A stretch of DNA of 9,511 nt, taken from contig MGQK01000082.1 in the NCBI GenBank assembly GCA_001797815.1, positions 77,073 to 86,583 on the forward strand. Reading direction: 5' to 3'. A program made the position numbers and the translations under genes. The DNA is from Deltaproteobacteria bacterium RBG_13_61_14 (GTDB lineage Bacteria > RBG-13-61-14). Shown here piece after piece: positions 2,330 through 7,284 of this stretch (positions are counted from its first letter, which is position 1; every line of letters starts with the position of its first letter). A model generated the notes under the pieces. It ran no database searches. It was given only the letters and a program-made list of their open reading frames with translations, and was not told where the DNA came from.

Positions 2330-2466
2330 CTTGCCCACCCCTCAGTTTTTGTCCGCACCGCATATTTTCGGACTGCGTAGGGGCGCAATTCATTGCGCCC
2401 GGTCCCGGTCAGGGCGCGATCAATCGCGCCCCTACCAGAGCTCCCGGAAAAATGAGGGGTGGCAAG
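2330..2466. mobile_element. MITE-like element with TIRs and 10-bp target duplication
   Basis: The left end CTTGCCCACCCCTCA (2330-2344) and the right end TGAGGGGTGGCAAG (2453-2466) are inverted copies differing by one missing C. The similarity continues inward over a T5/A5 tract to GTCC (2351-2354) and GG (2446-2447). Immediately outside both ends is the same 10-mer, TTCCCGGACG, at 2320-2329 and 2467-2476. Inverted ends abutting a perfect direct repeat are the hallmark of transposition with target-site duplication. The element is 137 bp, has no ORF and so would be non-autonomous; I do not recognise the family. It encloses a different palindrome (2377-2435). Confidence 0.72.
2377..2435. repeat. 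GTAGGGGCGC...GCGCCCCTAC double-hairpin palindrome
   Basis: A 59-bp near-perfect palindrome. The outer arms GTAGGGGCGC (2377-2386) and GCGCCCCTAC (2426-2435) are fully complementary. Each half also folds by itself: GGGCGCAAT/ATTGCGCCC (2381-2389 and 2392-2400, 2-nt spacer) and GGGCGCGAT/ATCGCGCCC (2412-2420 and 2423-2431, 2-nt spacer). The site can therefore form one long stem or two small hairpins. From memory, GTAGGGGC-type palindromes recur as dispersed repeats in many environmental bacterial genomes; copy number here is unknown. It lies wholly inside the TIR-bounded element. Confidence 0.8.
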
Positions 2467-4081: not shown

Positions 4082-5602
4082 ATGAGCGAGAGCCGGGAGT
4101 CGCGGCCGTCGCTTGCTCTCCGCGCGCGATGGGCCCAAGGTTTTCTCTTTCTGATCCCCGCGATTTTTTGCTGGGGGCTGGCCCGCCATGAGCCGGCGCT
4201 CCTGATTGACGACGCCTACATCACTTTCCGCTACGCCGAAAACCTGGCGCGAGGTCTGGGCCCGGTCTTCAACCCGGGCGAGCGGGTGCTGGGCACCACC
4301 GCCCCGCTCTGGGCCGGAATCCTGGCCGGGGCGCGGCTGCTCGGCTTCGCGATTCCTTCCGCGGCCCTGGTCCTGGGCCAGATCTTCACCGCGGCGACCT
4401 GCGGCCTGCTGGCCTGGATCCTGTTTCGCCACGTGGCCGCGCCGCTGGCGGTTTTGGCCGGGTTGGTCCTGGCCCTGCATCCGGACGCGATTTTTTTCGC
4501 CAACTCCGGGATGGAGACCGGACTCTCCATGGCGCTGGTGTTGGGATCGCTGGAGACAGCTTTACGCCGGCGCTTCTTGGCGGCTGGGGTCCTGAGCGGC
4601 GCCGCTTTCCTGGTGCGGCCGGATGGCGCCTTGCTCTTGCTCCTGGGCGGGGTGTTGGCGCTTCTGCAGGGGCGCAAGTCCTTGGTCCGCTTTGCGATCG
4701 CCGCGGCGGTGTTGGTGTTGCCCTGGATCATTTTTGCCATGGTCTTTTATGGCTCTCCCATCCCGCAGTCCATTGCGGCCAAGCAACTGATCCATGCCAC
4801 CAGCTTCCGCCACGCGCTGATGGGATACGCGCTGCTTTTTTTGCCGCCGGTCTGGCCCATGCGGCTTTTGGCCGCGCTGGCGCTGCCGGGTCTGGGCTTG
4901 GCCCTGATCTCGCGCGGTCGGCTCTGGCCTTTTGCCGCCTGGGCCATTTTATACATAGTTGGCCTTGTCTTTTCGCGGATCTCGGCGGTCTTCCCCTGGT
5001 ACCTGACGCCGCTCCTGCCCGTGATGTGCTTATTTGATAGCGAGACCTGGAACCGGTTTTTCTTGAGGGGGACAGGCATTCCTGCCTGTCATCAACCCGC
5101 TTGGCTCAAAAGAATTGGCTGGCTCGGTGCGATTCTGCTCCTCGGCCTGGGCGGCTGGCTTTACTCCTTTCGCCCGTTTTACCTGGAGGTGCGCGAGGCT
5201 CAGTTTGGCCGGGTGCGAGAGTATGAGAGACTCGGCGAGTGGCTGAAAACCCAGGCGCGGCCGGGGGACCAGATCCTGGTCGGGGAGGTCGGCGCCCTGA
5301 GCTTTGCGCTGATGGATTTCCCGGTGCTGGACAGCTCGGGGATCAACTCGCCGGAAATTTTGCGTCTGCACCGGGCGGATCAGGAGAGAAGCTTGGCCGC
5401 CGGGCAGGCGGCAGAGTCGGCGCGGTGGGTGAAGGAAGTGATTCAGCGTTTCCAACCGGAGTGGATTGTCACCTGGTACCGGTTCCTGCACCTGGAAGAA
5501 TTGGCCCAGGACCCCGATTTGCGCAGCCGCTATGTTCGGGTGAAGCCGCCGCTGCCGAACCTGGACCGCTTTTTCGTGCTCGAGCGGCGGGAATCTCCAT
5601 GA
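4082..5602 (+). CDS. GT-C type membrane glycosyltransferase, copy 1
   Basis: A 506-aa polytopic membrane protein. One hydrophobic segment (20-33) precedes a long extracytoplasmic loop with DDAYITFRYAENLARG (43-58) and FNPGERVLGTT (63-73). About nine more hydrophobic segments follow up to 361, then a soluble C-terminal region (about 365-506). An acidic DD pair in the first outer loop, followed by many helices, is the layout of GT-C enzymes (GT39/ArnT/AftB-like) that use polyprenyl-phosphate sugars; D43/D44 are the expected catalytic or metal site. Other shared blocks are SGMET (142-146), RPD (179-181), SIAAKQLIH (230-238), WYLTPLLP (306-313) and LDSSGINSPEI (416-426). The start ATG lies 4 bp after pepA, without a clear ribosome site. 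Residues about 329-338 come from a palindromic repeat absent from the paralogue downstream. Donor and acceptor are unknown. Confidence 0.82.
   Translation: MSESRESRPSLALRARWAQGFLFLIPAIFCWGLARHEPALLIDDAYITFRYAENLARGLGPVFNPGERVLGTTAPLWAGILAGARLLGFAIPSAALVLGQIFTAATCGLLAWILFRHVAAPLAVLAGLVLALHPDAIFFANSGMETGLSMALVLGSLETALRRRFLAAGVLSGAAFLVRPDGALLLLLGGVLALLQGRKSLVRFAIAAAVLVLPWIIFAMVFYGSPIPQSIAAKQLIHATSFRHALMGYALLFLPPVWPMRLLAALALPGLGLALISRGRLWPFAAWAILYIVGLVFSRISAVFPWYLTPLLPVMCLFDSETWNRFFLRGTGIPACHQPAWLKRIGWLGAILLLGLGGWLYSFRPFYLEVREAQFGRVREYERLGEWLKTQARPGDQILVGEVGALSFALMDFPVLDSSGINSPEILRLHRADQERSLAAGQAAESARWVKEVIQRFQPEWIVTWYRFLHLEELAQDPDLRSRYVRVKPPLPNLDRFFVLERRESP
5065..5095. repeat. REP-like palindrome inserted in frame in the glycosyltransferase gene
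   Basis: Arms GACAGGCA (5071-5078) and TGCCTGTC (5083-5090) form a perfect 8-bp stem with the 4-nt loop TTCC. The stem is preceded by a G-run and followed by ATCAACCC. It is translated as GTGIPACH within a loop between two membrane helices. The paralogue at 5599 lacks it: between the shared TPLLP and PGD blocks copy 1 is 9 residues longer, close to the size of the repeat. Confidence 0.7.
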
Positions 5603-7107
5603 CCGGCTCCCGTTTCCGCAATCTGCTCCCGGCCTTGCCTTTATTGGCGATCCCGGCCGCGGCGGTGCTCGGCGGGGTCGCAGCCTCGGGCTGGCTCTTC
5701 ATTGACGACGCCTACATCACCTTCCGCTACGCCGAAAACCTGGCCCGCTCTCTGGGCTTCGTCTATAACCCGGGCGAGCGCGTGCTCGGCACCACCACCC
5801 CGCTCTATTGCCTCTGGCTCGCCCTGGGCAACCTGGCGGGCGTGCCGACTTTGGTGCTGGCCCTGCTCACCGGAATCCTGGCCGCCGGGGCCAGCGGCTG
5901 CCTGGTCTGGCGACTGGGACGGACTCTCGGCCGGGACCGGGCCGGTTATGCCGCGGGCCTCGTGCTCGTCTGTTTCCCTCGTTTCTGGGTCGCGGCGGCC
6001 TCGGGCATGGAGACCACTCTGGCCGCGGCCATTGCTCTCCTCGCGCTCATCCTCGACTTCCGGAAGAAACCGGTCTGGGCGGGCTTAAGCCTGGCCGCCC
6101 TGGTCCTCACCCGGCCGGACGCCGTAGTCCTGGCCGCCGCCATCCTGGGAGTCCGCCTGGTCTTGGACCGCAAGGCCGCCTGGATCGAAGCCTCGGTCCT
6201 TCTGCTCGCGCTCCTGCCCTGGACGGTTTTCGGCTGGCTTGAATTCGGCTCGCCGCTCCCGCATTCCATCGCGGCCAAGCGGCTGATCCACCCGTTTCCC
6301 TGGGACCTGGTCCTGGGCAAAGAGTTGAAGTGGTTTGTCTCGGAGCCGGGTCTGATCGTGACTTCGGTCCTGTGGCTTCTGGGCGCGGGCTGGATGGCGG
6401 CGAGGAAGCGGGAAGCGCTCGTGTTCGCCCTCTGGCCGCCCCTGTTCCTGGCCGGATTGGCCGCGGGTCAGGTGGGGCCGTTCTTCTGGTATCGGACGCC
6501 GCTCTTGCCCGCCTATTTCCTGGTCGCCTTCCTGGGAGCGGAAGCTTTTGCCCGGCTGCTGCGGGAGCCTTGGCCCCGGCGGGTGATGGTCGGGCTCTCG
6601 GCTCTTTTCCTCGGTCTCTTCCTGGCGCCGGTGCCGACCGCTTTCCGCCAGGGTCTGGAGGCGCTCGTGGCCAAGGAGCGGGTGTATGAGCAGATGGCCG
6701 GGCGCATCCGGGAGCTGGGTCAGCCGGGGGACAAGGTGTTCGTGGGCGACGTGGGCGTGCTGGGGTATCGGCTCCAGGATTTTTATTTGCTGGACAGCTC
6801 CGGCATCAACTCGCTGGAGATCTACCGGCTGCGGCTGGCGGATCGTAAAAAACTTTTACAACAAGGCCCGAGTTACCGGTTCGACTGGTGGGGGAGCGCG
6901 GCCTGGAGCCGGGACGTGATCGAGCAATACCAGCCCCGGTTTATCGCCTCGGATGTTTCCTACCTGCACCTGCCGGAGCTGATCGGTGATCCCGAATTCC
7001 AGGCGCTCTACCGGATCGTCCGGACCTGGAGCCTGCCGGCCGCGAACTACGTGTTGCTGGTCAGGAACGAAAAGCCGGCAAACCCGAACCCGGCGGGACC
7101 GCCTTAG
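5599..7107 (+). CDS. GT-C type membrane glycosyltransferase, copy 2 (paralogue)
   Basis: A 502-aa paralogue of the gene before it, overlapping its stop codon through ATGA (5599-5602), so translation is coupled. Layout is the same: first helix about 10-30, outer loop with DDAYITFRYAENLAR (36-50) and YNPGERVLGTTTPL (56-69), about ten further helices up to 345, and a soluble C-terminal region. Shared landmarks include SGMET (135-139), TRPD (171-174), SIAAKRLIH (223-231), FFWYRTPLLP (295-304) and LLDSSGINSLEIYRLRLAD (397-415). D36/D37 are the likely catalytic or metal residues by analogy with GT39/ArnT-type enzymes. The C-terminal region (about 375-490), with a PGD-x3-VGDVG block, is shared by both copies and looks specific to this subfamily. 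Two such enzymes in tandem could add successive sugars to one glycan or lipid, or act as a heteromer. The substrate is not known. Confidence 0.82.
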   Translation: MTGSRFRNLLPALPLLAIPAAAVLGGVAASGWLFIDDAYITFRYAENLARSLGFVYNPGERVLGTTTPLYCLWLALGNLAGVPTLVLALLTGILAAGASGCLVWRLGRTLGRDRAGYAAGLVLVCFPRFWVAAASGMETTLAAAIALLALILDFRKKPVWAGLSLAALVLTRPDAVVLAAAILGVRLVLDRKAAWIEASVLLLALLPWTVFGWLEFGSPLPHSIAAKRLIHPFPWDLVLGKELKWFVSEPGLIVTSVLWLLGAGWMAARKREALVFALWPPLFLAGLAAGQVGPFFWYRTPLLPAYFLVAFLGAEAFARLLREPWPRRVMVGLSALFLGLFLAPVPTAFRQGLEALVAKERVYEQMAGRIRELGQPGDKVFVGDVGVLGYRLQDFYLLDSSGINSLEIYRLRLADRKKLLQQGPSYRFDWWGSAAWSRDVIEQYQPRFIASDVSYLHLPELIGDPEFQALYRIVRTWSLPAANYVLLVRNEKPANPNPAGPP

Positions 7108-7115
7108 TGCTCCAG

Positions 7116-7284
7116 TTCATAATTTCGATGACGTATTTTCACTGCTCGGTCCCGCCTGGCCCCATCAAGCTCCCCCTCACCCTCCCCTCTCCCCCCAGCG
7201 GGGGAGAGGATAAGGAGAGGGGGGTAGCCTTTCGGTGTCCCAGGACTGATATGAAGATCAAGAATACGTCATGATATTTATGAA
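7116..7284. mobile_element. MITE-like element between convergent genes
   Basis: The ends 7116-7140 and 7260-7284 are inverted copies, 19 of 25 positions matching. They include TTCATAA at each outer edge and the perfect 10-mer pair ATGACGTATT (7128-7137) and AATACGTCAT (7263-7272). The 169-bp unit has no ORF and encloses a GC-rich hairpin. I find no convincing flanking direct repeat, so insertion by a transposase is less certain than for the element at 2330. Alternatively it is a long bidirectional structured spacer. Confidence 0.5.
7172..7224. repeat. C-rich/G-rich hairpin repeat (CCCCCTCACCCT...GGAGAGGGGG type)
   Basis: The inner stem CCTCTCCCCC (7186-7195) and GGGGGAGAGG (7200-7209) is perfect over 10 bp with loop CAGC. 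An outer, imperfect stem continues to CCCCC (7172-7176) and a closing G-run (7219-7224). Hairpins of this composition are widespread dispersed repeats in high-GC bacteria. It may end transcription between the converging genes, but there is no following T-run on either strand. Confidence 0.7.

Follow-up and report, generated by a model that had tools for sequence, protein, structure and literature searches.

REP elements are palindromes of 20–50 nt that are dispersed in many copies, mostly in intergenic DNA, and preceded by a conserved 5′ tetranucleotide, which is GTAG in most cases. It was reported by Di Nocera et al. (2013; PMC3733652) that REPs may also lie wholly inside the ORFs of many species, and the encoded residues were given. 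According to the same paper, recB of two Xanthomonas species is occupied at nearly one and the same position by REPs that differ from each other, RPE-4/6 are counted as CGTC repeats, and GTGG is the usual form of the GTAG-20 elements of O. terrae. The Rickettsia palindromic elements (RPE) likewise occur in frame within protein genes and are translated, although RPE-1 is longer than the element described here. With regard to mobility, the strings GTAG, GGAG, and GTGG are all present in a RAYT/REP paper (PMC2817692), and the tetranucleotide is reported to guide the cut site, cleavage moving to CC when it was changed to GTGG (PMC8266576).

In the 9,511-nt stretch of DNA analysed here (the window), from Deltaproteobacteria bacterium RBG_13_61_14, a REP belonging to the G[GT][AG]G-GACAGRCATTCYTGYCTGTC family has very probably been inserted into a glycosyltransferase gene and is read as nine extra residues. 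Similar to the intragenic GTAG/CGTC-tagged REPs of Di Nocera et al., it is a tetranucleotide-tagged, translated palindrome inside an ORF; however, the commonest tetranucleotide here is GGGG. The string GACAG was not found in the main text of PMC3733652, and the family thus appears to be absent from the listing there. Intragenic translated REPs have been known since 2013, and the present case adds a clean instance to that known phenomenon; what is new is an apparently unlisted family, with a RAYT partner identified in other genomes.

The host gene and its protein

The features of the window are given in Table 1. The ORF that carries the element most likely starts at the ATG at 4082, and its product, called a glycosyltransferase in the initial annotation, indeed has a GT-C fold. 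NCBIfam NF041481 (arabinofuranosyltransferase) matched only weakly (38.9 bits, below the cut-off), while a PDB sequence search returned AftB (9dlf) as the sole match (E 3.4e-6), and a fold search with the predicted model placed AftB and ArnT at the top (9dlf, E 3.7e-8). The protein is AftB-like, AftB being its best solved relative, and possesses an N-terminal acidic (DD) motif, D43 D44, which is invariant. At window positions 7172–7223, 3′ of the second glycosyltransferase gene, an imperfect inverted repeat, CCCCCTCACCCTCCCCTCTCCCCC / GGGGGAGAGGATAAGGAGAGGGGG, was also observed.

Table 1. Coordinates of the features discussed (window positions).
Feature	Position	Strand	Remarks
Inverted pair of a separate REP family, GTAG-GGGCGCAATTCATTGCGCCC / GTAG-GGGCGCGATTGATCGCGCCC	2377..2435	.	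Between genes; context only
GT-C family membrane glycosyltransferase carrying the in-frame REP (copy 1)	4082..5602	+	506 aa; ORF, NCBIfam, PDB sequence and fold matches
REP element	5067..5090	+	Tetranucleotide GGGG (5067–5070) and 20-nt palindrome GACAGGCATTCCTGCCTGTC (5071–5090)
Approximate 27-nt insertion	5067..5093	+	From the 9-aa length difference; exact borders need an empty site
Codons read as GTGIPACH	5069..5092	+	Link between helices 305–330 and 340–391
Tandem paralogue without the REP element	5599..7107	+	38% identical to copy 1; start overlaps copy 1 stop (ATGA)

The in-frame element and the nine extra residues

The palindrome has the structure GACAGGCA-TTCC-TGCCTGTC, its 8-mer arm being found at 5071–5078 (+) and 5083–5090 (−). 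That it is translated in frame as GTGIPACH, as originally noticed, was confirmed: these are residues 330–337 of the protein (context ...FFL R GTGIPACH QPAW...), and the frame across the palindrome is RGTGIPACHQPAW. Inspection of the palindrome and its common variant found no stop codon in any of the six frames.

The length difference from the paralogue, put at nine residues in the initial annotation, holds exactly. Between the WY..P(L/M)L motif and the YE position in the alignment, copy 1 has 75 residues and the paralogue 66, an excess of 9 residues or 27 nt, and the same stretch comprises 66 residues in each of two same-order homologues (G001 and G002; counted by hand on the printed sequences). 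The nine residues are therefore lacking in both the paralogue and the same-order homologues, and their presence throughout distant relatives, the pattern that would speak against an insertion, was not found. Because the length of the interhelix link varies among more distant homologues, these speak neither for nor against an insertion, which is judged from the comparison with the paralogue and with the homologues of the same order. An empty allele from a near relative, i.e., the site without the 27 nt, was not detected among the compared genomes, two of which share the order.

In an AlphaFold2 model (26-sequence alignment, pLDDT 84, pTM 0.87), the REP peptide is predicted to form the link joining two long helices, with lower confidence at the peptide itself (blocks of about 56–65). 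This location supports the earlier suggestion that extra residues are tolerated between membrane helices. Briefly, the REP would have entered the gene as a 27-nt insertion, and the frame would have stayed open because of this length and the absence of stop codons in the palindrome. Nine residues (about GTGIPACHQ) would thereby lengthen the flexible segment that joins two membrane helices, at which the enzyme probably tolerates them. We infer that the peptide is present in the protein as produced and has a neutral effect, and that the window copy was moved by a RAYT.

Copies in the genome

The palindrome GACAGGCATTCCTGCCTGTC was found at 22 places with ≤2 mismatches in the 4.74-Mb genome, compared with 0 for the reversed control, and four copies are exact; the genome search proposed at the outset thus did not find it to be unique. 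A looser pattern adds further members, giving ~30 copies overall. Among 29 copies fetched irrespective of the tetranucleotide, 28 have G[GT][AG]G directly 5′ of the palindrome (21 GGGG, 6 GTGG, and 1 GTAG) and 15 have AACC directly 3′, and repeated flanks are common to several of them. Most copies appear to be located outside long ORFs with conserved content, as judged by ORF inspection. The window copy carries GGGG and so departs from the strict GTAG form; it is single rather than part of an inverted pair, and the element is mostly single in this genome.

Dispersed copies, a conserved tetranucleotide, and a common 3′ flank constitute the anatomy of a REP element. Given that a GTGG tetranucleotide shifts cleavage to CC in PMC8266576, the AACC flank is, by analogy, a plausible RAYT cut site. 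If point mutation had produced the palindrome within an ordinary loop, this would be in line with the variable length of the interhelix links across the family, but such a chance origin is refuted by the number of copies, four of them exact and 22 near compared with 0 for the control, and is contradicted by the identical palindrome in Planctomycetes, Acidobacteria, and Kiritimatiellaeota, and its probability is practically nil.

A second REP family (GTAG-GGGCGCRATTNATYGCGCCC), whose window pair lies between the MFS and aminopeptidase genes, is much commoner in this genome (149 copies; control 0).

Other genomes and RAYT genes

Among 386 sampled genomes, own genome included, the exact degenerate 20-mer occurs in the own genome and only six or seven others, and it was not found in the two same-order genomes of this sample. 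Carriers of the GGG-preceded form, in a scan of the collection other than the window's own record, include Phycisphaeraceae PL25a_bin.26, Phycisphaera IP29b_bin.17, Phycisphaerae 4_bin.8, Aquisphaera insulae, an acidobacterium, and a Kiritimatiellaeota genome. The tetranucleotide at the loci of other genomes, again fetched irrespective of it, is mostly GTAG or GTGG. The copies often form inverted pairs, mostly 55–80 bp apart, as in Phycisphaerae, Aquisphaera, Kiritimatiellaeota, and others; this is the arrangement of a REPIN or BIME (two inverted REPs with a short linker), which the window copy does not form.

In PL25a_bin.26, two inverted palindrome pairs flank a Y1 transposase gene (L140/L162), the product of which passes NCBIfam NF047646 (REP-associated tyrosine transposase) with 101 bits against a cut-off of 80. 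The RAYTs of Aquisphaera insulae (L163) and Kiritimatiellaeota Nt197P3bin96 (L181), which are 52% and 36% identical to it, respectively, have the palindrome on both sides in the form GGAG-GACAGGCATTC[CT]TGCCTGTC. All three loci thus show a RAYT flanked by the same REP, as in a REPtron, and the tetranucleotide with hairpin, the inverted pairs, and the flanked RAYT of described REPINs and REPtrons (PMC3116915, PMC2817692, PMC8266576) are all seen in these three genomes. Sister palindromes adjoin related RAYTs in the acidobacterium (50%; GTGG-GGCAGACACTCTTGTCTGCC) and in G296 (47%; GGAG-GGCGGACATTCCTGTCCGCC), which suggests, from the sequences compared, that palindrome and RAYT diverged together. 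Since RAYTs are flanked by the palindrome in three other genomes, a REP/RAYT relationship is well supported; together with the dispersed copies, the tetranucleotide, and the nine-residue excess, all observed directly, these RAYTs bear out the initial description of the element as REP-like.

The suggested search for a RAYT or Y1 transposase in the own genome succeeded in part. It yielded 19 matches to PF01797 (Y1 transposase), but no RAYT flanked by the window palindrome was found within the ~1.5–3 kb read on either side, and in this respect, as in its mostly single copies, the genome differs from described REPINs and REPtrons. The nearest own-genome relative of the cognate RAYT (C130, 43% identity) adjoins a different REP, TGCGGGTGNNNNCACCCGCA. 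RAYT-like genes on C63 (L192), C130 (L193 and L194), and C71 (L195) are flanked by REPs of the CGCGSCTGANNNCAGSCGCG and TGCGGGTGNNNNCACCCGCA types, so that several REP/RAYT sets exist in one genome. The assembly is 95% complete, and the partner RAYT of the window family may have been lost or remain unassembled; alternatively, the element may be served in trans by a different RAYT.

If the repeat had spread without a transposase, through recombination or through template switching at palindromes, this would account both for the fact that no cognate RAYT was found in the own genome and for the repeated flanks that several copies have in common. Such a process fits neither the conserved tetranucleotide nor the RAYT genes flanked by the element in three genomes, and we regard it as unlikely. 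The mover would most likely be a RAYT, a Y1/HUH single-strand transposase recognising the tetranucleotide and the hairpin.

In-frame copies in methylase genes

Two more genes of the genome contain the same REP in frame and continue as coding sequence to its left and right. In an Eco57I-type adenine methylase (C33) it is read as GGTDIPVCQP directly before LRILDPACGSG, and in a DUF1156 methylase (C92) as KTGKNACPP. This count leaves aside the in-frame readings in L003, L007, L011, L013, L050, and similar ORFs of uncertain coding status, as well as L042 and L048, in which the element is at a possible 5′ end and the true start may be downstream. The DUF1156 methylase with the REP (L008) also contains, in the same frame, a GIY-YIG nuclease domain (residues about 220–320; Pfam E 4.9e-15). 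After DPACGSG, the L012 methylase has an in-frame repeat-like RRGAPLCAPPTGQTRGSAPT (from GTAG-GGGCGCACCCCTGTGTGCGCCCC-CTAC) and HRDTESTEG.

A paralogue of the C33 methylase on C53 (88.6% DNA identity over 1.5 kb) has the REP at the same codon. Its copy reads GGCAGACATTCCTGTCTGCC, with a two-sided change, GACAG..CTGTC to GGCAG..CTGCC, that keeps the stem paired. The pair has a dN of 0.078 and a dS of 0.317 (dN/dS about 0.25; Nei–Gojobori, 502 codons, one pair). The pair is under purifying selection, which suggests that the methylase has been kept as a protein while containing the translated REP.

It might be argued that the hairpin is instead kept because it has a function within the gene as an RNA or DNA signal, for attenuation, ribosome pausing, or protection of the mRNA end before the coupled second gene. 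The hairpin in the glycosyltransferase gene is stable as folded RNA (−16.5 kcal/mol, z −2.2), an ATGA overlap joins the gene to its downstream paralogue, and the stem pairing is preserved in the two methylases. Nevertheless, the paired change was a single event, seen in a single gene pair, and is no proof that the hairpin is selected; moreover, the element lies in the middle of the gene, 0.5 kb short of its end, is absent from related genes, and is found both in unrelated genes and in intergenic DNA. A signal function is accordingly quite improbable, and insertion of a mobile REP is preferred.

In 20 methylase homologues, the segment that runs from YTP to DPACGSG comprises 40–43 residues and has no REP-like insertion in this loop. 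Longer segments without a clear REP were found in G368 (53 residues) and G131 (57 residues), while three own-genome paralogues, G022, and G002 have segments of 64–87 residues with different in-frame palindromes. This loop, which precedes AdoMet motif I, carries palindromes in L200/L012 (C33), L224 (C53), L225 (C12), L201 (G022), and L205 (G002): GTAG-CCGCGACCG..CGGTCGCGG, GTGG-GACAGACA..TGTCTGTC, CCCACCCTTCGC..GCGAAGGGTGGG-CTAC, GTAG-GGGCGCGATTCATCGCGCCC, CGTC-ATTCCCGC..GCGGGAAT, and GTAG-GGGCAGGGC..GCCCTGCCC. A second nearby loop holds more palindromes, and those in C12 resemble the ones beside the C63 and C130 RAYTs.

Some protein loops could be recurrent landing sites for many REP families. 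Tentatively, the Eco57I-type methylase loop may have been filled independently in several genomes, with translated REPs persisting under protein selection, and the glycosyltransferase link may be a further such site; the homologue set behind this suggestion is small and non-random.

Biological implications

With the putative methylase landing site, the finding reaches past the window itself, and this is the part of greatest interest. With up to four in-frame palindromes and many repeat-free homologues, the methylases of this genome offer a natural set for estimating rates at which REP insertions are tolerated. A REP family common to several phyla, and tied to a probable transposase, appears to add short peptides to proteins without disrupting the reading frame.
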